A stretch of 57,480 bases of DNA from an uncultured Lachnospiraceae bacterium (GTDB lineage Bacteria > Bacillota > Clostridia > Lachnospirales > Lachnospiraceae): NCBI GenBank assembly GCA_944381575.1, contig CALWLS010000003.1:192760-250239 (forward strand), written 5' to 3'. The notes under the pieces are model-generated. The model ran no database searches and was not told the origin of the DNA. It was given only the letters and a program-made list of their open reading frames with translations. The position numbers and the translations under genes are program-made. Of the stretch, positions 13,520-26,754 are shown in pieces (position 1 is the stretch's first letter; each line of letters starts with the position of its first letter).

Positions 13520-14740
13520 ATGGAAAAGAAAGATATCAAAAAGATAGTTCTCGCTTATTCTGGAGGACTTGATACATCTATAATAATCCCTTGGTTAAAG
13601 GAAAATTACAATGATCCGGAGATCATAGCCGTTTCAGGAAATGTTGGACAGGGGGACGAGCTTGAGGGACTGGAGGAAAAGGCCATAAAGACCGGAGCTT
13701 CTAAGCTTATAGTCGCTGATCTTGTTGACGAGATGGTGGATGACATCATCATTCCGGCGTTAAAGATGGGCGCAAAGTATGAAACTTATCTGCTTGGCAC
13801 GGCCTTCGCCCGTCCTGTTATAGGAAAGAAGCTGGCTGAGATAGCTCTCGCTGAAGGAGCTGACGCCATAGCTCACGGCGCAACGGGAAAGGGCAACGAT
13901 CAGGTGCGTTTCGAGCTTGCCATCAAGAGGTTCGCTCCTGATATGAAGATCATAGCTCCTTGGAGGGAATGGGATATCAAGTCCCGTGACGAGGAGATAG
14001 ATTACGCAGAGGCTCACAACGTGCCGTTAAAGATAAGCAGGGAGACCAACTATTCCAAGGATAAGAATCTCTGGCACTTAAGCCACGAGGGTCTGGATCT
14101 TGAGGATCCGGCAAATGAGCCTCAGTATGAAAAGGAAGGCTTCCTTGAGATGGGAGTATCCCCTATACAGGCGCCGGATGAGCCTACATATATCAGCATC
14201 GATTTTGAAGCTGGCGCACCTGTGGCATTTAATGGGGAAAAGATGAAGGCCTCAAAGATTATTGAAAAGCTGAATGAGGTTGGAGGCGCAAACGGCATCG
14301 GTATCATTGATATCGTTGAAAACAGGCTTGTCGGCATGAAGGACCGCGGAGTATACGAGACTCCTGGAGGAACCATCCTTTATAAGGCCCATGAGCAGCT
14401 GGAAATGCTCACGGTGGATAAGGAGGTGCTCCACGAAAAGGAGAAGTTAGCGGTGGACTACGCTGATCTTATTTATAACGGAAAATGGTACACTCCGCTT
14501 CAGGAGGCGCTTACCGCTTTTGCAAACGAGGCTAACAAGTATGTTACCGGAACCGTTAAGCTTAAGCTTTATAAGGGCAATATAATCCCTGCGGGAACTA
14601 CCTCTCCTTACTCACTGTATTCTGAGAATCTCGTTACCTTCGGTGAGAGCGACTATGATCAGAAGCAGGCTGAGGGCTTCATAAATCTCTGGGGACTTCC
14701 TACCAAGGTACAGGCCTTAAGGGAGCAGGGACGTCTCTGA
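13520..14740 (+). CDS. argG: Argininosuccinate synthase
   Basis: This 406-residue ATP-dependent enzyme joins citrulline and aspartate. The N-terminal ATP-pyrophosphatase loop is clear ([16 protein letters not shown]), followed by [15 protein letters not shown] and [14 protein letters not shown], which are characteristic of ArgG. Its length is standard. GGAGG lies 10 nt before the ATG. It is the first gene of a nine-gene arginine/carbamoyl-phosphate operon and follows the promoter at 13366. argH comes 104 bp later, after a hairpin at 14783-14814 that lacks a T run and may allow readthrough. Confidence 0.97.
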
Positions 14741-14814: not shown

Positions 14815-14844
14815 ATTAAACAGCTTTAATGGAGCTTTTTGATT

Positions 14845-16221
14845 ATGGCAAAGATGTGGGCCGGAAGGACTGCCGGCAGTACCGATAAGATAGCGGATGA
14901 TTTCAACTCCTCAATACATTTTGATAAGAGGATGTACAGACAGGATATAGAGGGCAGCATGGCCCATGCGGCGATGCTCGCAAAATGCGGCATTATAACG
15001 CCGGAGGATGCGGACATGCTCACAGAAGGGCTTAAAGGCATACTTAATGACCTTGAAAGCGGGGAGCTTCAGTTTGACCTAAGCTGTGAGGACATTCACA
15101 TGTTCGTAGAGCAGGTGCTTACGGAGAGGATCGGCGATACGGGTAAAAAGCTGCATACAGCAAGGAGCCGCAACGATCAGGTGGCGCTGGACTTAAGGAT
15201 GTATCTGAGGGACGAGGCCTCTGACATAATGAGTCTCATAAGGGAGCTTACAGAAACACTTACGGCTGTGGCTGAGAAAAACATGGGGCTTGTAATGCCG
15301 GGATACACACATATGCAGAGGGCACAGCCGATACTTTTTTCCCACCACATCATGGCCTACGCCATGATGCTCTTAAGGGATAATGGAAGGCTGAAAGATA
15401 CCGTCAAAAGGATGAATGTTTCTCCAATAGGCTCCTGCGCCCTTGCCGGAACCACCTATGAAACGGACAGAGTTTTTGAGGCGGAAAGGCTCGGATTTGG
15501 TGAAGTGGCAATGAACAGTCTTGACGGAGTCTCCGACAGGGATTTCTGCCTTGAATTCATGAGTGCCTTATCCATACTCATGATGCATCTGTCGAGATTT
15601 TCCGAGGAGCTGGTGCTCTGGTCCAGCTGGGAATTTAAATTCATAGAGCTTTCCGACAGCTTTACTACGGGCTCATCGATCATGCCTCAGAAAAAAAATC
15701 CAGACATGGCAGAGCTCATCCGCGGCAAGACCGGAAGGGTATATGGAGACCTGATGGCTCTCCTTACCACATTAAAGGGACTCCCACTGGCATACAATAA
15801 GGATATGCAGGAGGATAAGGAGGCCGTATTTGATTCCGTGGATACGGTAAAGATGTGCCTTAAGGTCATGATACCTATGATAAAGACCATGAAGGCCATA
15901 CCTGAAAACATGAGAAAGGCAGCGGGGGAGGGCTTTATAAACGCCACGGACCTGGCCGATTATCTCGTAAAAAAGGGTCTGCCTTTCAGGACGGCTTATA
16001 AGATATCCGGGGAAATTGTCGCTGAATGCATTAAAAAGGGCTGTGTACTTGAAACATTCCCTTTGGAGGATTATAAAAAATACAGCGGGCTTTTTGAATC
16101 GGACGTATATGACGATATCAACATAGAAAACTGCGTTGAAAAGCGTATCTCACTGGGAGGCACGTCTAAGGCCTCAGTCCTGGAGGAGATAAAATACGTA
16201 AAAAAGGAGCTTTCGAAATGA
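14845..16221 (+). CDS. argH: Argininosuccinate lyase
   Basis: This 458-residue enzyme splits argininosuccinate into arginine and fumarate. The family signature GSSIMPQKKNPD is present near residue 280, with HTARSRNDQVALDLR near 110 and GYTHMQRAQP near 158. I use the ATG at 14845 (MAKMWAGRTAGSTD), which matches where ArgH proteins begin; a TTG at 14839 in the same frame is also possible but sits only 4 nt from GGAG. It overlaps argC by 4 bp (ATGA), so the two are probably translationally coupled. Confidence 0.96.
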   Translation: MAKMWAGRTAGSTDKIADDFNSSIHFDKRMYRQDIEGSMAHAAMLAKCGIITPEDADMLTEGLKGILNDLESGELQFDLSCEDIHMFVEQVLTERIGDTGKKLHTARSRNDQVALDLRMYLRDEASDIMSLIRELTETLTAVAEKNMGLVMPGYTHMQRAQPILFSHHIMAYAMMLLRDNGRLKDTVKRMNVSPIGSCALAGTTYETDRVFEAERLGFGEVAMNSLDGVSDRDFCLEFMSALSILMMHLSRFSEELVLWSSWEFKFIELSDSFTTGSSIMPQKKNPDMAELIRGKTGRVYGDLMALLTTLKGLPLAYNKDMQEDKEAVFDSVDTVKMCLKVMIPMIKTMKAIPENMRKAAGEGFINATDLADYLVKKGLPFRTAYKISGEIVAECIKKGCVLETFPLEDYKKYSGLFESDVYDDINIENCVEKRISLGGTSKASVLEEIKYVKKELSK

Positions 16222-17144
16222 CGAAGGTATTTATAGACGGAAGTTCGGGAACCACGGGCTTAAGGATATACGAGAGGATAGAGGCAAGAACGGACATAGA
16301 GCTGATAAAGCTTCCGGAGGAAAAAAGAAAGGATGAGGCCGCAAGGAAGGAAGCTCTTCATGAGGCGGATATCGCATTTTTATGTCTTCCGGATGAGGCT
16401 GCAAGAGAGGCGGTAAAGCTTGCGGAAGGCTCCGATACCGTGATCATAGACACCTCTACCGCCCACAGGACGGATCCGGGCTGGGCTTACGGATTTCCAG
16501 AGCTTAAGGGCTTAAGGGATAAGATTGCTTCGTCAAAAAGGATAGCAAACCCGGGCTGCCACGCCAGCGGGTTCATTGCTCTTATAGAGCCCCTTGTGGC
16601 GGAGGGCGTCATATCAAAGGATACGGCTCTTACATGTCTGTCCCTTACGGGCTACTCCGGGGGCGGGAAAAAGATGATAGCCGAGTATGAGGCACCGGAA
16701 AGGGACAGCCTGCTCATGGCTCCGAGAGTCTACGGGATAAGCCAGTCCCATAAGCATTTAAAGGAAATGAAGCTGATACCCGGCCTTGATATAGAGCCGG
16801 CGTTTTATCCGGTAGTAGCTGATTTTTATTCCGGCATGGAGACAAATATCTCTCTATTTAAAAAGGACATAAAAGGTACTGCCGAGGATATCAGGAGTAT
16901 ATACAGGGAAAGGTATTCCGGAAAGATAGTGCATTATGAGGAAAGCCTTGATGATGCAGGCTTCATCTCCGCAGCAAAATTAAAGGACAGGGACGATATG
17001 GCTGTTTCCGTCAGTGGAAATGAGGAAAGGATAACCCTTATCGCCCTGTTTGACAACCTTGGAAAGGGAGCGTCAGGGGCTGCGGTCCAGAACATGAACA
17101 TAGTGCTCGGCATAGATGAGGCCGCCGGCCTTGTAACGGAATAA
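16218..17144 (+). CDS. argC: N-acetyl-gamma-glutamyl-phosphate reductase (short type)
   Basis: This 308-residue enzyme makes N-acetylglutamate semialdehyde with NADPH. It belongs to the shorter ArgC type (about 310 residues) rather than the 340-350 residue form. The N-terminal nucleotide-binding loop is DGSSGTTGLRIYER, and the catalytic cysteine is C114 in NPGCHASGF. GKGASGAAVQNMN near the end is also typical. The start overlaps the argH stop, and AAGGAG lies within the end of argH. argJ follows after 38 bp. Confidence 0.93.
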   Translation: MTKVFIDGSSGTTGLRIYERIEARTDIELIKLPEEKRKDEAARKEALHEADIAFLCLPDEAAREAVKLAEGSDTVIIDTSTAHRTDPGWAYGFPELKGLRDKIASSKRIANPGCHASGFIALIEPLVAEGVISKDTALTCLSLTGYSGGGKKMIAEYEAPERDSLLMAPRVYGISQSHKHLKEMKLIPGLDIEPAFYPVVADFYSGMETNISLFKKDIKGTAEDIRSIYRERYSGKIVHYEESLDDAGFISAAKLKDRDDMAVSVSGNEERITLIALFDNLGKGASGAAVQNMNIVLGIDEAAGLVTE

Positions 17145-17182: not shown

Positions 17183-18400
17183 ATGATAAAGATAATAGAA
17201 GGCGGCGTATGCGCCGCAAAGGGATTTAAGGCAAACGGCATACACTGCGGCATACGCCATAATAACACTAAAAAGGATCTTTCCCTTATCGTTAGCGATG
17301 TGCCAGCAAAGGCTGCAGGGGTATATACCTCAAATCTTGTAAAGGGAGCGCCGATCTACGTCACAAAAGCTCACTTAGCTGACGGCATGGCGCAGGCGGT
17401 CATAGTAAACAGCGGAAACGCCAATACCTGCAATGCTGACGGGATCGAGATAGCTGAGAAGATGTGCGGGCTTACCGCAGACGCCCTCGGCATAGATAAG
17501 GATGATGTTATAGTAGCCTCTACAGGTGTCATTGGACAGCCGTTAAACATCAAGCCGATAGCCGACGGCATGGAGGAGCTTGTAAAGGGACTCTCGTATG
17601 AGGGAAATAAGGCCGCTGCCGAAGCCATAATGACTACTGATACGGCGATGAAGGAGGTTGCCTGCGAATTTGAGATAGGCGGAAAGATCTGCCGTATGGG
17701 AGCCATGGGAAAGGGAAGCGGAATGATCCACCCTAACCTTGCCACCATGCTTGTATTCATCACAACCGATGCCGCAATTTCCGCCGGAATGCTGGAAAAG
17801 GCTCTTAAGACGGATGTGGTAAAGAGCTTCAACATGGTTTCCATAGACGGCGATACCTCCACCAATGATACGGTCAATATACTTGCCAACGGGCTTGCGG
17901 GAAATGCCGAGATCACTGAGGAAGGCGAGGACTTTAAGGCGTTTATGGAAGCCTTAAATACCGTTACCGTAAGTCTCTGCAGGATGATAGCCGCCGACGG
18001 CGAGGGAGCCACAAAATTCCTTGAATGCGACGTGAACGGGGCAGCAGATGAAAAGACTGCAAAGACAGTGGCTAAAAGTGTAATATGCTCATCCCTTTTA
18101 AAGGCGGCCATGTTCGGGGCCGACGCCAACTGGGGCCGCGTGCTCTGCGCCATAGGTTACTCGGGAGCCGATGTGGATATCTCAAAGGTGGACGTAAGCT
18201 TCAGATCTGGTAAGGGTGAGATAGAAGTCTGCAGGGATGGAGCCGGAGTGGCATTTTCAGAGGAAAAGGCCAAGGAGATCCTTTTGGAAAAGGAGATATA
18301 CATCCTTGTGGGGCTTAACAGCGGAAGCTCATCGGCAAGCGCCTGGGGCTGCGATCTTACCTATGACTACGTAAAGATCAACGGTGACTACAGAAGCTGA
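17183..18400 (+). CDS. argJ: Bifunctional glutamate N-acetyltransferase / ornithine acetyltransferase
   Basis: This 405-residue enzyme transfers acetyl groups between acetylornithine and glutamate, the cyclic route to ornithine. It is made as a precursor that cleaves itself before the catalytic threonine, here T188 in LATMLVFITTDA. Other family sequences are NSGNANTCNA near residue 75, KGSGMIHPN before the cleavage site, and GADANWGR near 315. The presence of ArgJ explains why no argA or argE is found in the operon. The ribosome binding site is GAGGCGGATG. A 260-codon open frame on the opposite strand is a shadow. Confidence 0.96.
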   Translation: MIKIIEGGVCAAKGFKANGIHCGIRHNNTKKDLSLIVSDVPAKAAGVYTSNLVKGAPIYVTKAHLADGMAQAVIVNSGNANTCNADGIEIAEKMCGLTADALGIDKDDVIVASTGVIGQPLNIKPIADGMEELVKGLSYEGNKAAAEAIMTTDTAMKEVACEFEIGGKICRMGAMGKGSGMIHPNLATMLVFITTDAAISAGMLEKALKTDVVKSFNMVSIDGDTSTNDTVNILANGLAGNAEITEEGEDFKAFMEALNTVTVSLCRMIAADGEGATKFLECDVNGAADEKTAKTVAKSVICSSLLKAAMFGADANWGRVLCAIGYSGADVDISKVDVSFRSGKGEIEVCRDGAGVAFSEEKAKEILLEKEIYILVGLNSGSSSASAWGCDLTYDYVKINGDYRS

Positions 18401-18418: not shown

Positions 18419-19291
18419 ATGGACGCATCACTTTCAAACATAGACAGGGCCGAAGTGCTCGCCAAGGCGCTTCCCTATATCAGGAAGTACAATAATAAGA
18501 TCGTAGTTGTAAAATACGGCGGAAACGCCATGGTCAGCGAGGAGCTTAAGCAGCAGGTCATGGAGGACATAGTCCTTTTGTGGCTGATAGGCGTAAAGGT
18601 AGTCCTCGTTCACGGAGGCGGGCCTGAGATAAATGAAATGCTCGGAAAGATAGGCAAAAAGAGCGAATTTGTCGGAGGCTTAAGGGTCACGGATAAGGAG
18701 ACAGTGGATGTAGCGGAGATGGTCCTTGCCGGAAAGGTCAATAAGGGGCTGGTAAACCTCCTTGAGGTAAAGGGCGGAAACGCCATGGGCATTTCCGGAA
18801 TGGACGGCAGGCTCATAGAGGCCAGGATAAAGGATGATAACTTAGGTTATGTGGGGGAGATAACTAATATCAACAAAAAGCCTATAATGGACCTTTTGGC
18901 AAACGGCTATATACCTGTGGTTTCCACCATAGGCTGTGACAGGGACGGCAATATATATAACATTAACGGAGACACGGCAGCCGCCCACATAGCGGGAGCC
19001 TTAAACGCCGAGAGGCTCATAATGATGACCGATATCTCGGGCATACTTAAGGATAAGTATGATCCGTCGTCTCTTATACCGGAGCTTACAACCGAGGAGG
19101 CAGTGGGCTTATACGATAAGGGAGTTATATCAGGAGGCATGATACCTAAGGTAGATTCCTGCATAAAGGCCATAGACATGGGAGTCAAAAACTGTGTTAT
19201 AATGAACGGCTGCCTGCCGCACGCCATACTCATCGAGCTCCTTACCGAGGAGGGCGCAGGCACCATGATAAAGGCTCCGGCATCAAGATAA
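18419..19291 (+). CDS. argB: Acetylglutamate kinase
   Basis: This 290-residue kinase phosphorylates N-acetylglutamate, usually the arginine-inhibited step. The family sequences are VVKYGGNAMVSEELK near residue 28, VLVHGGGPEINEML near 61, and INGDTAAAHIAGALNAERL near 180. GGMIPKVDSCIKAIDMGV near the end completes the set. GGAGTGA precedes the ATG, and the gene is 18 bp from argJ. The length is close to the arginine-sensitive class, so feedback control is plausible but not proven from sequence. Confidence 0.96.
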   Translation: MDASLSNIDRAEVLAKALPYIRKYNNKIVVVKYGGNAMVSEELKQQVMEDIVLLWLIGVKVVLVHGGGPEINEMLGKIGKKSEFVGGLRVTDKETVDVAEMVLAGKVNKGLVNLLEVKGGNAMGISGMDGRLIEARIKDDNLGYVGEITNINKKPIMDLLANGYIPVVSTIGCDRDGNIYNINGDTAAAHIAGALNAERLIMMTDISGILKDKYDPSSLIPELTTEEAVGLYDKGVISGGMIPKVDSCIKAIDMGVKNCVIMNGCLPHAILIELLTEEGAGTMIKAPASR

Positions 19292-19319: not shown

Positions 19320-20489
19320 ATGAATTTAATGGAAAAAGACAAAAAATACGTTGCCAATACCTATAAGAGATTCCCAGTATGTCTTGTAAGGGGAGAGGGC
19401 TCGGTCGTTTATGATGAAAATGGTAAAAGGTATATAGACATGGGCTCAGGCATAGGCGTCACATCCTTTGGAATAGCCGATGCAAAATGGCAGGAGGCTG
19501 TGACAAAGCAGCTTGGAACGCTGCAGCATTCCTCCAATCTTTATTATACGGAGCCCTGCGTAAGGCTTGCGGAGCTTTTATGCGAAAAGACCGGCATGAA
19601 AAAGGTGTTCTACGCCAACTCCGGAGCCGAGGCAAATGAAAACGGCATAAAGGCCATAAGAAAATACGCCGCAGAGCATAAGGGAAAGGAATATTATACG
19701 ATAATAACTTTGGAAAACAGCTTCCACGGAAGGACTCTTACCACCCTTGCGGCAACCGGCCAGGATGTATTCCATAAGCTTTATCAGCCGCTTACGCCGG
19801 GATTCATTTCCGTACCTGTGGATCTCAATGCGGTGGAGGAAGCCGTAAGGGATAACAAAGTCGCCGGCATAATGATGGAATGCATACAGGGCGAGGGCGG
19901 AGTAAAGGCCCTCGATGAGGATTTCGTAAAGGGAGTGGCAGAGCTCTGCAGGAGAGAGGATCTCGTACTGCTCTGCGATGAGGTGCAGAGCGGAAACGGC
20001 AGGAGCGGATATATGTATTCGTATATGCATTACGGCATAGAGCCTGACGTTGTGACCACGGCCAAGGGGCTTGCCGGAGGTATTCCAATAGGAGCCTGCC
20101 TATTAAATACAAGATTAAAGGATATCTTCGGACCCGGGGATCTGGGTTCCACATTTGGAGGAAATCCTGTTGCCTGCGCCGGCGGCGTAAGCATAGTGGA
20201 GAGGATAGATGATGATTTCCTTAAGGAAGTTACAGAAAAGGGAAAGTATCTTTTTGACACATTCAGTAATGCCGAAGGCATAAAGAATGTATCGGGCATG
20301 GGGCTCATGATGGGCCTTGAGACTGAAAAACCTGCGGGAGAGCTGGCTTCAGAGCTTATTGAAAAGGGAGTCCTGGTGCTTACGGCAAAGGATAAGCTGA
20401 GACTGCTTCCGGCGCTCAACATTCCTATGGAGCTTTTGAAGGAGGCAGCAGAAATAATAATCGAGGCCTGCAGGCCTGAGGCTGAGTAA
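19320..20489 (+). CDS. argD: Acetylornithine aminotransferase
   Basis: This 389-residue pyridoxal-phosphate enzyme converts N-acetylglutamate semialdehyde to N-acetylornithine. The PLP lysine is K249 in TTAKGLAGGIPIGA, preceded by LLCDEVQSGNGRSG. FYANSGAEANENGIK near residue 98 and SFHGRTLTTLAATGQ near 136 are class III transaminase landmarks. It follows argB by 28 bp. Length and start (MNLMEKDKKYVANTY) are standard. Confidence 0.95.
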   Translation: MNLMEKDKKYVANTYKRFPVCLVRGEGSVVYDENGKRYIDMGSGIGVTSFGIADAKWQEAVTKQLGTLQHSSNLYYTEPCVRLAELLCEKTGMKKVFYANSGAEANENGIKAIRKYAAEHKGKEYYTIITLENSFHGRTLTTLAATGQDVFHKLYQPLTPGFISVPVDLNAVEEAVRDNKVAGIMMECIQGEGGVKALDEDFVKGVAELCRREDLVLLCDEVQSGNGRSGYMYSYMHYGIEPDVVTTAKGLAGGIPIGACLLNTRLKDIFGPGDLGSTFGGNPVACAGGVSIVERIDDDFLKEVTEKGKYLFDTFSNAEGIKNVSGMGLMMGLETEKPAGELASELIEKGVLVLTAKDKLRLLPALNIPMELLKEAAEIIIEACRPEAE

Positions 20490-20510: not shown

Positions 20511-21515
20511 ATGTATTTTATAATCGGAAATAAATTTAAGGGAAGGAGCTTCCTTAAGCTCTTGGATTTTACGCCGGAGGAGATCAGCCTGCTTTTAGAT
20601 ATGGCAGCGGAGCTCAAAGACCAGAAAAAGCGTCACGAGTCCCACAAGGTATTTGCCGGAAGGAATATCGCGCTGATATTTGAAAAAACCTCCACCAGGA
20701 CGAGATGCTCCTTTGAGGTGGCGGCAGCCGACCTTGGCATCCATCCTGTTTATCTTGATCCAAAGAGCTCTCAGATAGGCAAAAAGGAATCCATAGCAGA
20801 TACCGCGAGGGTCCTTGGCAGGATGTTCGACGGCATAGAATACAGGGGCTTTGAGCAGGAAAGAGTGGAGGCCCTTGCAAAGTATGCTGGGGTTCCGGTG
20901 TGGAACGGGCTTACAAATGAGTCCCATCCGACGCAGATATTGGCGGATTTTCTGACTATTCGTGAGCATTTTGGCAAACTTAGCGGTATCAAGCTTGTTT
21001 ATATGGGCGATGCAAGATATAATATGGGTAACTCATTAATGGTAGGGTGTGCACTCATGGGAATGCACTTCGTGGCATGTGCGCCGGAAAAGTATCTGCC
21101 TGAGAGCTGGCTCATTGAAAAATGCAGGTCCATTGCGTCGGAAACGGGGGCAAGGATAGAGTTTGAGGAGGATCCTGTAAAGGCTACAAAGGGAGCCGAT
21201 GTGATCTATACCGACGTCTGGGTATCAATGGGAGAGCCGGATGAGATCTGGGAGGAACGTATCAGGGATCTCATGCCGTATCAGGTCAATCAGAGGATAA
21301 TGGATAACGCCGGACCTCAGTGCCGGTTCATGCATTGCCTGCCGGCATTCCACGATCTCGGAACGGAGATAGGCAAGGAGATAAGCTCCAAGTTCGGCAT
21401 AGACGCCATAGAAGTGACCAATGAGGTGTTTGAGGGCCCAAGCTCAATAGTATTTGACGAGGCTGAAAACCGTATGCATACCATTAAGGCTGTGATAGCA
21501 GCGACAATCCAATAA
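20511..21515 (+). CDS. argF: Ornithine carbamoyltransferase
   Basis: This 334-residue enzyme makes citrulline from ornithine and carbamoyl phosphate. The carbamoyl-phosphate loop is STRTR ([14 protein letters not shown] near residue 60), with [11 protein letters not shown] near 142 and [12 protein letters not shown] near 278 holding the catalytic cysteine. AAGGAG lies 9 nt before the ATG. The first ten residues ([10 protein letters not shown]) extend slightly beyond the common start of [10 protein letters not shown]. It lies directly before the carbamoyl-phosphate synthase genes that supply its substrate. Confidence 0.96.
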
Positions 21516-21539: not shown

Positions 21540-22610
21540 ATGGAGAAAGCATACCTTGTTTTAAGCAATGGAAAAATATTTGAAGGATTTCGTATTGGAG
21601 CCGAGCATGACTCCATTGGTGAAATCGTTTTTACGACCGGTATGGAAGGGTATTTGGAAACGTTGACCGACCCCAGCTATGCCGGTCAAATTATTACCCA
21701 GACCTTTCCTCTCATAGGAAATTACGGAGTTATCGAGGAGGATTTCGAGGGTAAGGTCTGCGCTAAGGGATATGTGGTAAGGGAGCTCTGCGAGGAGCCT
21801 TCAAACTTCAGATGCCAGTATCCTCTCGATAAATTCCTTAAGGATCATTCCATACCGGGTATCTGCGGTATAGATACCAGGGAGCTCACGAGGATAATCA
21901 GGGAAGAAGGAGTAATGAATGCCAAGATCTGCAGCTCCATCCCGTCCGATATAGCGGACATCAGGGATTACGCCGTGAGCAGGGTGGTGGAGATCGCCGG
22001 CAGGACTGAGACAGAGGTGTTCCCTGCGGAGGGTGAGGAAAAATACAAGGTCACCCTTATAGACTACGGCGCTAAGCTCAATATAATACGCTGTCTGCAG
22101 AAGCGCGGATGTACCGTGACGGCGGTGCCGTATAACATTTCGGCAGAGGCTGTGCTTGAGGCGCAGCCTGACGGAGTCATGCTTTCAAACGGACCTGGAG
22201 ATCCGGCAGAAAATACCTACTGCATAGAGCAGATCAGGAAAATGATCGGAAAGGTCCCGATATTCGGTATCTGTCTCGGACATCAGCTTACGGCCCTCGC
22301 CATGGGCGGAAAGTCCGTGAAGCTTAAGTACGGCCATCACGGAGCAAACCAGCCGGTTAAGATGGATGACGGCAGCCGTACCTTTGTCACGAGCCAGAAC
22401 CATAACTATGCCGTGCTTTCCGAGAGCCTTAAGGGTAAGGGCAGGGAGATATTCTTTAACGCCAACGACTTAAGCTGCGAGGGCATGGAGTACGCCGACG
22501 TGAACTGCTTTACGGTGCAGTTCCATCCTGAGGCCTGCGGAGGGCCTAAGGATACGGAATTTTTATTTGACAGATTCCTTAAGATGATGGGAGGAGAACG
22601 TAATGCCTAA
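21540..22610 (+). CDS. carA: Carbamoyl-phosphate synthase, small (glutaminase) subunit
   Basis: This 356-residue class I glutamine amidotransferase delivers ammonia to CarB. The catalytic cysteine is C245 in FGICLGHQLTALA, with the His/Glu pair in VQFHPEACGGP. The N-terminal domain has FTTGMEGYLETLTDPSY near residue 31. The stop overlaps the carB start by 8 bp, giving translational coupling. Because it sits at the end of an arginine operon, this copy is probably controlled by arginine; whether it also serves pyrimidine synthesis cannot be told here. Confidence 0.96.
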   Translation: MEKAYLVLSNGKIFEGFRIGAEHDSIGEIVFTTGMEGYLETLTDPSYAGQIITQTFPLIGNYGVIEEDFEGKVCAKGYVVRELCEEPSNFRCQYPLDKFLKDHSIPGICGIDTRELTRIIREEGVMNAKICSSIPSDIADIRDYAVSRVVEIAGRTETEVFPAEGEEKYKVTLIDYGAKLNIIRCLQKRGCTVTAVPYNISAEAVLEAQPDGVMLSNGPGDPAENTYCIEQIRKMIGKVPIFGICLGHQLTALAMGGKSVKLKYGHHGANQPVKMDDGSRTFVTSQNHNYAVLSESLKGKGREIFFNANDLSCEGMEYADVNCFTVQFHPEACGGPKDTEFLFDRFLKMMGGERNA

Positions 22611-25600
22611 GGATTTGAGTATAAAAAAGGTCCTGATGATAGGTTCGGGCCCGATAGTTATCGGACAGGCTGCCGAGTTTGACTATGCGGGAGCCCAGGC
22701 GTGCCGTGTCTTAAGGGATGAGGGCATCAATGTAGTGCTCGTAAATTCCAATCCTGCCACTATCATGACGGATAAGGATCTTGCGGATGAGATATATCTT
22801 GAGCCGTTAAATGCTGAAACGGTGGAGCGTATCATAGCAAAGGAAAAGCCAGACGGGCTTCTGGCAGGTCTTGGAGGACAGACGGGCCTTACCATAGCCA
22901 TGCAGCTTAAAAAGGCCGGAGTCCTGGATAAGTATAACGTAAGGCTTCTCGGTTCGCCGGTGGAGGCCATAGATAAGGCGGAGGACAGGGAGCTGTTCAA
23001 GGAGACCATGGAGTCGATAGGACAGCCTGTGGTGCCTTCGGAGATAGCGAACACCATAGAGGAGGCTCTTTCGGTAGCCGCAAAGATCGGATATCCGGTA
23101 ATAGTAAGGCCGGCCTTTACTCTTGGCGGAAGCGGCGGCGGAATAGCGGCCGACGCCGAGGAGCTTAAGGTCATCGCAAAGAGCGGACTGGACATGTCCC
23201 CTATCACTCAGATCCTTGTTGAAAGATGCATATCCGGATGGAAGGAGATAGAGTTTGAGACCATGAGGGATTCCCTCGGCAACGTCATAGCGGTCTGCTC
23301 CATGGAAAACTTTGATCCCGTGGGAGTACATACCGGAGATTCTATAGTCGTAGCTCCGGCGCTCACTCTTTCTGATAAGGAATATCAGATGCTAAGGAGC
23401 GCGGCCCTCGACATGATCACTGCCCTCGGCATAGTGGGAGGCTGCAACTGCCAGTTTGCCCTTAACCCGGACAGCTTCGAGTACGCCGTAATAGAGGTCA
23501 ACCCTCGAGTATCCCGTTCTTCAGCCCTTGCAAGTAAGGCTACGGGATATCCTATCGCAAAGATAACTACCAAGATAGCTCTTGGCTATACTCTTGATGA
23601 GATACAGAATGACATAACAAAGAAGACCTGCGCCTGCTTTGAGCCTACCCTCGATTATGTGGTAGTCAAATTCCCTAAGTGGCCGTTCGATAAATTTGCA
23701 GGCTCTTCAAGGACCATAGGCACGCAGATGAAGGCTACCGGTGAGGTCATGGCCATAGCCAACAGCTTTGAGATGGCCCTCATGAAGGCAGTGCGCGGAG
23801 CCGAGATCGGGGCGGACACCTTGAACCTTCCACCGCTTTCGGATAAGCCGGTGATGGAGAGAGTTGCAGAGCAGAACGACAGAAGGCTGTTCTCCATATT
23901 TGAGGCAATCAAGGCTGGGCATTCCTTAGAGGAGATCCATGAGGTCACGAAGATCGACATGTGGTTCCTTCACAAGGTAAAGAACCTGGCGGACTATGAA
24001 CAGCACATAGCCTCTCTTGGACAGGACACACTGCCGGCTGCGGACTATGAGAGAGGAAAGAAGCTGGGCTATACCGATGCCGCCATTTCAAGGATCAGCG
24101 GCGTTGCCATGGATAAGCTTCCGGGATGGAAGTTCAGCTATAAGATGGTAGATACCTGCGGCGCGGAGTTTGATGCTGAAACGCCGTATTTCTACTCGAC
24201 CTGTGATGAAACCTGCGAGTCAAGGACCTTCGAGAGAAGCGGCAAAGACGTTATCATCGTCCTTGGATCTGGCCCTATACGTATAGGACAGGGTATAGAG
24301 TTCGATTACTCTTCCGTGCACTGCGTATGGACGCTCCGTAAGATGGGCTACGACGTGGTCATCATAAATAATAACCCTGAGACCGTATCCACGGACTATG
24401 ATACGGCGGACAGGCTGTATTTTGAGGCCCTTACACCTGAGGATGTCATGAACATCATAGAGGTGGAAAAGCCGGTGGGCGTCGTTGTGGCCTTCGGTGG
24501 ACAGACGGCCATCAAGCTTACCAATTACCTTGATTCACATGGAATAAGGATCCTCGGTACTTCTGCAGAAGGCATAGACGTGGCCGAGGACAGGGCAAAG
24601 TTTGACGCCCTCCTTGAGCAGTTCGGCATTTCAAGGCCTAAGGGATTTGGAGTAAGAACCGTCGAGGAAGCGGTAAAGGCTGCAGACACCCTGGGATATC
24701 CGGTTCTCTTACGCCCGAGCTATGTCATAGGCGGACAGAACATGACCATATCCCATGACGATGAGCATACCATCAAGTACATGAATACCATACTTGCCGG
24801 TGGAATAGATAACCCTGTGCTGGTGGATAAATACATGGAGGGTCCGGAGCTTGAGGTAGATGTTATTTCCGACGGAGAGGACGTTCTCATACCGGGAATA
24901 ATGGAGCATATAGAGAGGGCCGGAGTACATTCCGGAGACTCCATAGCGGTCTATCCTCCATATAATCTTACGGACAAGTTCCTTAAGATCATATGTGACA
25001 GCTCCGAAAAGCTTGCTCTTGCCCTTGGCACCAAGGGACTTGTAAATATACAGTACCTTATCTACCATGATAAGCTCTATGTAATAGAGGTTAACCCGAG
25101 GGCTTCACGTACGATTCCTTACATTAGCAAGGTAACGAACGTGCCTATGGTGGATCTTGCCACAAGGGTAATGCTCGGAGCCAAGTTAAAGGATCTGGGA
25201 TACGGCACCGGACTTTATAAGACCCCGCCTTACAGTGCGGTAAAGGTACCGGTATTCTCCTTTGAAAAGCTTAACGACGCAAACTCCATATTAGGCCCTG
25301 AGATGAAGTCCACCGGTGAGGTGCTTGGCATAGGCAAGACTCTTGTAGAGGCGCTCTATAAGGGACTTACGGCTGCGGGATTTACAGTGCCGTCCTCGGA
25401 AACCGAGGATATGCCGGCGGTATTTATATCTGTCCATGACAAGGACTACGACGAGGTGCTGTCCCTTGCCAAGAGGTTCTATGACCTGAGGATGCAGCTT
25501 ATCGCTACCTTCGGTACGGCCGAGGCCATCAGCAGGATGGGGTATCCTGTAATGAGCGTGCAGAACGCCACTGAGAGTTCAGAGATATATGATCTCATGG

Positions 25601-26670
25601 AAGCAGGCAAGATCGGATACATAATCTATACCGGCGCAGCTCTTGATGAGACCACAGAGGATTACATCAAGCTCCACAGAAAGGCCATGCAGTTAGGCAT
25701 ACCTTGCCTTACGAGCCTGGATACCGCGGGAGCCTTAGCTGAGATCATAGAGAGCCATTATACGATAAATAATACTGAGCTTGTGGATATCAACCACATG
25801 CGTTCGGAAAAGAGCAAGGTGCATTTTACAAAGATGCACTCCTGCGGAAATGACTATATATTCATAGAGAACTTTGACAATGCCATAACCTGTCCTGAGT
25901 CGCTGTGCATCAATCTCTGCGCGCCTCACTACGGCATCGGTGCGGACGGCATAGTCCTCATTGAAAAGCCTGACGTGGAGGGCTCGGACGTAAGGATGAG
26001 ATCCTTTAACAAGGATGGCTCGGAGGGCAAGATGGCCGGAAACAACATCCGCTGCGTCGCAAAGTATATCTATGATAACGGGCTTGTGGATAAGGACAGG
26101 GATACCGTCAAGATAGACATGGACGGACATCAGCATACGCTTTCACTGTTCACAAGGGACGGAAAGGTAAGCTCAGTCACCGTGGACATGGGCAAGGTAA
26201 GCTTTATGGCCAAGGATATCCCGGCGGTTTCAAAGGATCCTGCGGCAAAGCTTATCAATCAGCCTATAAAGGTCATAGGAGACGAGTTCAACGTCACCTG
26301 CCTTACAGTGGGCAATCCGCACTGTGTAATATTCGTAAACGTGCTGGATACCCTGTGGCTGGAAAAGATAGGACCTGAGTTTGAATATCATCCTATGTTC
26401 CCTGAGAGGACCAATACCGAGTTCGTAAGGGTCGTAAACAGGGATACGCTTAGAATGAGAGTCTGGGAGCGCGGTAACGGAGAGACTCTTGCCTGCGGAA
26501 CCGGAGCCTGCGCAGCAGTTGCGGCAGCAGTAGTAAACGGACTCTGCGACAAGGGCACGGACGTCACGGTAAAGCTTCTTGGAGGCGATCTTGTAGTAAA
26601 TTACACGGACGAGAGAGTTACCCTTACCGGTTCCGTAACAACGGTATTCGAGGGTGAATTCGAGTATTGA
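22603..26670 (+). CDS. carB: CarB-DapF fusion: carbamoyl-phosphate synthase large subunit with C-terminal diaminopimelate epimerase domain
   Basis: One uninterrupted frame of 1355 residues encodes two enzymes. Residues 1 to about 1060 are a complete CarB: the first ATP-grasp half (GQAAEFDYAGAQACRVL, GGSGGGIA), an oligomerisation region, the second half (GQGIEFDYSSVHCVWTL, RPSYVIGGQNM) and the C-terminal allosteric domain (KIGYIIYTGAALDE). From residue 1066 (HMRSEKSKVHFTKMHSCGNDYI) a full-length DapF of about 290 residues follows. It keeps FNKDGSEG, GNPHCVIFV, WERGNGET and C1298 in ACGTGACAA. The other catalytic cysteine position is alanine (A1145 in KMAGNNIRC). No stop and no strong ribosome binding site lies at the junction. 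DapF normally converts LL- to meso-diaminopimelate for lysine and peptidoglycan. The CarB assignment is certain; activity of the DapF part is not. A terminator follows at 26711. Confidence 0.95.
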   Translation: MPKDLSIKKVLMIGSGPIVIGQAAEFDYAGAQACRVLRDEGINVVLVNSNPATIMTDKDLADEIYLEPLNAETVERIIAKEKPDGLLAGLGGQTGLTIAMQLKKAGVLDKYNVRLLGSPVEAIDKAEDRELFKETMESIGQPVVPSEIANTIEEALSVAAKIGYPVIVRPAFTLGGSGGGIAADAEELKVIAKSGLDMSPITQILVERCISGWKEIEFETMRDSLGNVIAVCSMENFDPVGVHTGDSIVVAPALTLSDKEYQMLRSAALDMITALGIVGGCNCQFALNPDSFEYAVIEVNPRVSRSSALASKATGYPIAKITTKIALGYTLDEIQNDITKKTCACFEPTLDYVVVKFPKWPFDKFAGSSRTIGTQMKATGEVMAIANSFEMALMKAVRGAEIGADTLNLPPLSDKPVMERVAEQNDRRLFSIFEAIKAGHSLEEIHEVTKIDMWFLHKVKNLADYEQHIASLGQDTLPAADYERGKKLGYTDAAISRISGVAMDKLPGWKFSYKMVDTCGAEFDAETPYFYSTCDETCESRTFERSGKDVIIVLGSGPIRIGQGIEFDYSSVHCVWTLRKMGYDVVIINNNPETVSTDYDTADRLYFEALTPEDVMNIIEVEKPVGVVVAFGGQTAIKLTNYLDSHGIRILGTSAEGIDVAEDRAKFDALLEQFGISRPKGFGVRTVEEAVKAADTLGYPVLLRPSYVIGGQNMTISHDDEHTIKYMNTILAGGIDNPVLVDKYMEGPELEVDVISDGEDVLIPGIMEHIERAGVHSGDSIAVYPPYNLTDKFLKIICDSSEKLALALGTKGLVNIQYLIYHDKLYVIEVNPRASRTIPYISKVTNVPMVDLATRVMLGAKLKDLGYGTGLYKTPPYSAVKVPVFSFEKLNDANSILGPEMKSTGEVLGIGKTLVEALYKGLTAAGFTVPSSETEDMPAVFISVHDKDYDEVLSLAKRFYDLRMQLIATFGTAEAISRMGYPVMSVQNATESSEIYDLMEAGKIGYIIYTGAALDETTEDYIKLHRKAMQLGIPCLTSLDTAGALAEIIESHYTINNTELVDINHMRSEKSKVHFTKMHSCGNDYIFIENFDNAITCPESLCINLCAPHYGIGADGIVLIEKPDVEGSDVRMRSFNKDGSEGKMAGNNIRCVAKYIYDNGLVDKDRDTVKIDMDGHQHTLSLFTRDGKVSSVTVDMGKVSFMAKDIPAVSKDPAAKLINQPIKVIGDEFNVTCLTVGNPHCVIFVNVLDTLWLEKIGPEFEYHPMFPERTNTEFVRVVNRDTLRMRVWERGNGETLACGTGACAAVAAAVVNGLCDKGTDVTVKLLGGDLVVNYTDERVTLTGSVTTVFEGEFEY

Positions 26671-26710: not shown

Positions 26711-26754
26711 CTGCCGTATCATAGGGGCGCATGCTCATATGGTACGGCAGTTTT
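26711..26754 (+). terminator. Terminator of the arginine operon
   Basis: CTGCCGTA (26711-26718) pairs with TACGGCAG (26743-26750), followed by TTTTG; further inner pairing is possible (CAT/ATG). Confidence 0.8.

Follow-up and report, generated by a model that had tools for sequence, protein, structure and literature searches.

A diaminopimelate epimerase domain with an incomplete catalytic cysteine pair at the end of a clostridial carbamoyl-phosphate synthase

Why would the large subunit of carbamoyl-phosphate synthase (CPSase) carry, directly behind its allosteric domain, a diaminopimelate (DAP) epimerase domain? The question is raised by a gene in a 57,480-nucleotide stretch of DNA (the window; contig CALWLS010000003.1) from an uncultured Lachnospiraceae bacterium, in which a single open frame on the forward strand (22603..26670) encodes a CarB–DapF fusion (carB::dapF) of 1355 amino acids (aa). 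A first-pass annotation made from the letters alone had taken the gene for two biosynthetic enzymes in one chain. The architecture stood up to analysis, but the DapF half as a working epimerase fared poorly, since the catalytic residue Cys73 is missing and another DapF of the same genome has both catalytic cysteines. We give a probability of roughly one-half to the reading that the chain goes back to a bifunctional CarB–DapF ancestor and that its DapF part turned, on several occasions, into a domain of CPSase that binds a ligand without acting as an epimerase and is probably allosteric. We found no description of a CarB–DapF fusion in the open-access literature, subscription papers and preprints lying outside the search.

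Results

A Single Open Frame Joins CarB and DapF

The frame begins with ATG and contains no internal stop. Its first 1053 residues (22603..25761) match the CPSase large-subunit models PRK05294 (1439 bits) and, near full length, TIGR01369 (1413 bits against a curated cut-off of 1027). Residues 1074–1353 (25822..26661), predicted to fold like DAP epimerases, match the DapF model TIGR00652, again near full length, with 261 bits against a curated cut-off of 115. A stop-free frame running from a complete CarB into DapF, as first annotated, is borne out by these matches; the "full-length" DapF is right as to length but not as to the active site, where the catalytic Cys73 is replaced by Ala.

The two parts meet in a stretch (25762..25821) that is a low-confidence linker in the predicted model and holds a conserved Met. 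An internal translation start at this Met was considered and rejected for want of any Shine–Dalgarno excess: the mean duplex energy was −2.8 kcal/mol at 76 loci, compared with −9.9 at 52 carB starts and −3.2 at 799 internal Met codons, and energies of −5 kcal/mol or better were reached by 22/76 junction Mets, 26% of the 799 internal codons and 46/52 carB starts. The junction Met was located by pattern in 76 of 81 sequences, and the window's own may be among the other five. As the junction Met lacks a Shine–Dalgarno signal, a separate DapF product is not suggested.

The first-pass annotation had proposed a search for relatives with both domains in one chain and had named a frameshift or stop at the junction in other strains as one way in which the fusion could fail. 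The fused frame recurs in independent assemblies. Among the 80 best-matching loci, all titled metagenome-assembled or uncultured and mostly labelled Oscillospiraceae, Ruminococcaceae, Clostridia or Clostridiales, DapF lies in a stop-free stretch no shorter than 1200 aa in 68, is cut by a contig end in 11 and belongs to an interrupted frame in one. That single case (L064, 4132-6960) is broken within the CarB part, with 943 aa left in frame with DapF, and may be an assembly error or a real break. The same frame in many independent assemblies excludes an assembly chimera, a frameshift or chance. Within the genus, 5 of 25 genomes, the window's own included, have the fused frame (1358–1363 aa). Wider samples give lower bounds: a DapF match inside a frame of 705–1573 aa in at least 88 of 247 genomes of an order sampled around one of the 80 loci, and the fusion in at least 19 of 398 genomes of a phylum sample, in nine family codes (E ≤ 1e-70). 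None of the fused matches listed in the genus, order and phylum samples contains an internal stop. In other genera of the window's family, the genomes whose frames were listed have an unfused DapF; because of this, and because the fusion is found in 5 of the 25 genus genomes, the fused gene or the whole arg–car cluster may have entered the genus by horizontal transfer.

The Fused Domain Has Lost a Catalytic Cysteine in Most Genomes

The two-base mechanism of DapF relies on a pair of cysteines, Cys73 and Cys217 (numbering of E. coli DapF, the reference sequence being identical to PDB 5ygu). In an alignment to that protein, the window's motif KMAGNNIRC stands opposite AQCGNGARC, with an Ala codon, GCC (26035..26037), at the place of Cys73 and a Cys codon, TGC (26494..26496), retained at the place of Cys217. 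Ala73 with Cys217 was seen in 80/80 of the best-matching loci. Among 134 fused genomes, each represented by one row, a catalytic cysteine is lost in 112 and both are kept in 22: the residue pair at 73/217 is Ala/Cys in 89, Cys/Cys in 22, Gly/Cys in 9, Ser/Cys in 5, Phe/Cys in 5, and Gly/Ser, Pro/Cys, Cys/Ser and Thr/Ser in one each. The phylum sample has both cysteines in 6 of 19 fused genomes, the window's genome being among the other 13, and in the family coded f114 both are gone (Ser73 and Ala217) with the pocket kept in 3/3 fused genomes read. Unfused DapF proteins, a non-random set of best-scoring or chosen matches, have both cysteines in 85/88 rows (83/86 distinct rows). Two of the three exceptions (L085 and L251) are contig-edge pieces and probably cut fusions; the third (L021, genome G028) is an unfused DapF in which Ser takes the place of both catalytic cysteines and the other active-site residues are kept.

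Replacing either cysteine removes most or nearly all activity of DapF-type enzymes, according to two studies (PMC8225329; PMC11602996). A relocated catalytic cysteine was considered and rejected, as neither candidate position is fixed in the 112 Cys-lost genomes (Cys9 in 65 and Cys76 in 9). Judged from its residues, the DapF half of the window's chain very probably has no epimerase activity, because it lacks one of the two required cysteines and a second DapF in the same genome carries both. That separate dapF, which the first-pass annotation had proposed to look for, is present on contig C14 (L003, 865-1929; 354 aa) of a genome of 2.0 Mb in 18 contigs (97.4% complete), and no CarB other than the fused one was found in this genome. 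This unfused DapF is of a divergent type, with the motif ERGVEDFTYACGTG, that is common to several genomes of the genus.

The DAP Pocket Is Kept under Purifying Selection

All DAP-contact residues are kept in the window's DapF domain (N11, N64, G74, N75, N157, N190, R209, G218 and S/T219), and Gly at position 44 is shared with unfused clostridial rows. Across the 112 Cys-lost genomes, N64, N190, E208 and T219 are kept in 112, N157, H159, R209 and G218 in 111, G74 in 110, N75 in 107 and N11 in 99; H159 and E208 belong to the DapF pocket as well. Most of the pocket residues appear as DAP contacts of H. influenzae DapF in PMC8225329. An alignment of 40 close relatives has 13 of 14 pocket positions invariant, compared with 65 of 283 DapF columns, and Ala73 is present in 40/40, retained through four synonymous codons. 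The ratio of nonsynonymous to synonymous substitution rates (dN/dS) over 14 close pairs, some of which share members, was 0.07–0.14 for the Ala73 DapF domain and 0.03–0.11 for the CarB core, with two further pairs that included the window saturated at silent sites. The Ala73 DapF domain is thus under purifying selection.

The predicted model has a complete DapF fold (mean pLDDT 85; pTM 0.66, a value that does not fix the orientation of the domains). Its best match among solved folds (Foldseek) was 9mro_A, a cyanobacterial DapF with a bound DAP analogue (TM score by target length 0.91). In comparison with the TIGR00652 family, the domain shares this fold, the DAP contacts and Cys217, and differs in its fusion to CarB and in having Ala for the catalytic Cys73.

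Most Cys-Lost Genomes Have Another Route to meso-DAP

Another route to meso-DAP, either an unfused dapF or Ddh, was found in 100 of the 112 Cys-lost genomes and in 14 of the 22 fused genomes with both cysteines. The former comprise 82 genomes with an unfused DapF, 18 more with Ddh, 2 with weak Ddh-like matches and 10 with neither; the latter comprise 6 with an unfused DapF, 8 more with Ddh and 8 with neither, 7 of these 8 having DapB. Fisher tests that ignore kinship gave P values of 1e-4 for cysteine loss against unfused dapF and 0.005 against either route. In these counts an unfused DapF was scored as present at four or more PF01678 matches (two per DapF), frames being listed for part of the genomes only, and the survey covered 50 of the 80 best loci in one set and 80 of 85 first-named genomes in another; left out of the 85 were contig-edge pieces (G484, G487, G395 and G598) and a degenerate domain (G402). 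The distribution fits a release of the fused DapF from catalytic duty. DapB is absent from 5 of the 12 Cys-lost genomes without another DapF or a clear Ddh, which probably have no pathway; the 12 genomes may be incomplete, and the pyridoxal phosphate-dependent DapF2, an enzyme described in PMC9026213, was not sought in them.

The Nucleotide-Effector Site of CarB Is Altered

In front of the junction, the MGS-like allosteric domain of CarB (residues 952–1037, 25456..25713; PF02142 and residue comparison) does not retain the nucleotide site of the E. coli enzyme: K954, K993, N1015 and T1017 are Y, N, Y and G in the window, K954, N1015 and T1017 being further residues of that site beside K993. The site is a regulatory feature and is not required for membership of the CarB family. 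According to PMC6245113, UMP inhibits and IMP and ornithine activate E. coli CPSase through the C-terminal domain, with Lys993 and Thr977 mattering for UMP and Thr1042 for ornithine. By alignment reading, the window has a Thr at the place of 1042, and Thr977 is kept in 88/89 Ala73 fusions. Lys993 is kept in 22/22 fusions with both cysteines and in 10/89 Ala73 fusions. The 1015 loop reads Ser-Thr-Ser in 22/22 of the former (residue 1015 being Ser), and among the 89 Ala73 fusions residue 1015 is Tyr in 82 and residue 1017 Gly in 85.

A second CarB was found in 29 of 44 Ala73 genomes searched and in 7 of 22 genomes with both cysteines. As the whole cause of the altered site it was rejected: the fused CarB stands alone in 15 of the 44, and 14 of these 15 have lost the site too (Tyr1015).

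One or Two Fusions and Repeated Cysteine Losses

A single branch (SH-aLRT 94) separates the fused from the unfused domains in a quickly built tree of 223 DapF domains; rooted on E. coli DapF, this tree nests the fused domains within the unfused. A second quick tree, of 236 rows, contains more fused rows and omits L085 and L251 (contig edge), G857 (the same genome as G387) and the long-branch unfused L021, L023, L024 and L025 that the first tree keeps. The fusion probably arose one or two times, since the fused/unfused label needs two changes on the 236-row tree, at least one of them forced. Among the fused domains of this tree, Cys/Cys versus lost changes 10 times, at least 5 of the changes being forced by well-supported branches, and the 73/217 residue pair changes 20 times.

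Adjacent carB and dapF genes are a plausible source of the fusion. In six stretches chosen for the closeness of their second carB and dapF matches (L273–L278), an unfused dapF comes immediately after a second, unfused carB in 6/6; carA precedes carB in four, and the other two stretches start inside or just before carB. In L273 and L276, the only two scanned downstream, a gene for LL-DAP aminotransferase follows dapF, giving the order carAB-dapF-dapL. The carB-dapF order is not universal, the second carB and the unfused dapF being on different contigs in other genomes (e.g., G597). Two further loci (L279, 2403-7518; L280, 1724-8804) have a fused carB::dapF and, close downstream on the same strand, a second, unfused dapF.

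The Fusion Closes an Arginine Operon

All genes named here lie on the forward strand. The order is argG (13520..14740; TIGR00032), argH (14839..16221; TIGR00838), argC (16218..17144; TIGR01851), argJ (17183..18400; PRK05388), argB (18419..19291; TIGR00761), argD (19320..20489; TIGR00707), argF for ornithine carbamoyltransferase (20511..21515; TIGR00658), carA (21540..22610; PRK12838, 433 bits) and carB::dapF, the last gene of the operon. The directly upstream carA shares its last 8 bases with the first 8 of the fusion and provides the small-subunit partner of the fused CarB. Behind the fusion, also on the forward strand, an imperfect inverted repeat (26711..26750; 18-nt arms, 83% complementary, then TTTT) is a possible but weak operon terminator, and a terminator scan found none in the stretch that holds it. 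The system thus resembles E. coli CarAB (TIGR01369) in all CarB domains, the adjacent carA and the arginine operon context; it differs in the ∼280-residue DapF added after the allosteric domain and in the four nucleotide-site residues not kept.

Three loci (L048, 2425-6960; L050, 2452-6960; L058, 2437-6960) encode triple fusions of 1503–1512 aa, in which a CarA small-domain fragment, ∼150–170 aa by eye, runs in frame into CarB–DapF; the glutaminase part is absent from the chain. No unfused DapF was found in their genomes, but Ddh is present. The CPSase of such a chain would use free ammonia, if no separate glutaminase serves it.

Discussion

How an epimerase could have become part of a CPSase may be pictured as follows. 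The fused DapF would at first have been an active epimerase in a bifunctional chain, and probably still is in some relatives. In the window's lineage, and separately in several others, a catalytic cysteine would then have been lost with the DAP pocket retained, mostly where another route to meso-DAP exists. The disarmed domain most likely binds DAP or a close relative of it and, placed directly behind the allosteric domain, would adjust carbamoyl-phosphate synthesis through its bound state, an effect that, like its sign, we infer. Control derived from DapF might in this way replace the nucleotide (UMP/IMP) site lost in the Ala73 clade. The first-pass annotation had suggested that the fusion could couple CPSase, or the allosteric control of this enzyme, to the metabolism of wall precursors, and the pattern of conservation favors such a link, because the DAP pocket is kept whereas the catalytic cysteine and the native nucleotide site are lost.

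Several observations weigh against this reading. Cys217 is retained in 109 of the 112 Cys-lost genomes, a degree of conservation that ligand binding by itself would not seem to call for. Seven Cys-lost genomes have DapB without a clear other route to meso-DAP and may need the fused domain. When the association between cysteine loss and other routes was corrected for kinship, the 3–5 pairs that the test provided showed no tendency (0.6 the same way and 0.4 the other on average). Outside the Ala73 clade, Lys993 is kept in 18/23 of the other Cys-lost fusions, making the loss of the nucleotide site essentially the event of one clade. That loss may instead reflect specialization for arginine, because 29 of the 44 Ala73 genomes searched have another CarB besides the fused one and argF lies in the examined flank of the fused gene in 50/80 loci.

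The retention of Cys217 would be accounted for if this residue alone ran another reaction on DAP or a similar amino acid, by proton exchange or elimination, a possibility that we consider doubtful. One-base catalysis has a precedent in the trans-3-hydroxy-L-proline dehydratases of the related proline racemase family, and such dehydratases are among the fold neighbors (4k7g and 6r76); moreover, H159 and E208 are kept, like Cys217, in nearly all or all Cys-lost genomes (111 and 112 of 112), and in the nearest relatives residue 73 has settled on Ala and does not drift. Residue 73, however, is A, G, S, F, P or T according to lineage, and residue 217 is lost in some (Ser in 3/112; Ala in f114), in all cases with the pocket kept. 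Because 73 varies and 217 is sometimes lost while the pocket persists, binding fits better than one new chemistry.

Normal DapF epimerases are dimers, and the fold could serve to set the oligomeric state of CPSase or to dock a partner without sensing any ligand. Such a scaffold agrees with the maintenance of the domain under selection and with the E. coli variant DapF(C73&217A), which according to PMC4227774 has no epimerase activity and still binds and stimulates RppH. A scaffold needs no ligand contacts, yet these are among the most conserved positions of the domain, and we regard it as unlikely. The RppH system is equally a precedent for the allosteric reading, as a regulatory role of DapF that, in the same source, is independent of epimerase activity; there the regulator is a separate, active enzyme acting in trans, whereas here it would be covalently attached and naturally lacks the catalytic pair.

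Epimerase activity of the DapF half of the window's chain is more improbable still. Fused copies with both cysteines do exist (22/134), eight of their genomes have neither another DapF nor Ddh, and the seven Cys-lost genomes with DapB and no clear other route are left unexplained by the loss of activity. In the window itself, however, Cys73 is absent, a change of the kind that cripples DapF-type enzymes (PMC8225329; PMC11602996), no fixed site offers a substitute cysteine, and the genome carries an intact DapF elsewhere. A passive passenger, decaying after redundancy and without a present role, could explain why cysteine loss accompanies other routes in most genomes (kinship uncorrected) and why one frame in 80 is interrupted, but is very improbable given a dN/dS of 0.07–0.14, the kept pocket and fused matches free of stops.

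For a DapF domain that would have turned from an epimerase into a regulator of CPSase, human CPS1 offers a partial parallel. PMC4655335 describes an inactive glutaminase-like domain that is kept and a switch to another effector, N-acetylglutamate (NAG), and CPS1 thereby shows that a CPSase can take on a new effector and retain a domain that has lost its activity. The two systems would be alike in joining a CPSase to an enzyme domain that no longer works and in answering to a different effector. In CPS1 the dead domain is the glutaminase and, by the same source, NAG acts on the allosteric domain itself.

For genome annotation, the consequence is that a family model such as TIGR00652, an "equivalog," credits genomes with an epimerase on account of a domain that most likely is none. 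More tentatively, and with clearly less confidence than in the reading above, the classic UMP/IMP control of CPSase might have given way, in a widespread gut lineage, to a disarmed DapF that senses DAP. The amount of a wall building block would then govern how much enters arginine and pyrimidine synthesis, and with it the supply of UDP-sugars for the same wall, the conversion having happened several times with intact, half-disarmed and fully disarmed stages coexisting. If true, this would wire the level of a peptidoglycan precursor directly to carbamoyl phosphate, from which the arginine and pyrimidine pathways diverge, in uncultured bacteria of the gut and rumen. The fusion would also be a rare natural series of an enzyme becoming an allosteric domain after fusion, with the intact, one-cysteine and no-cysteine forms all found in living lineages.

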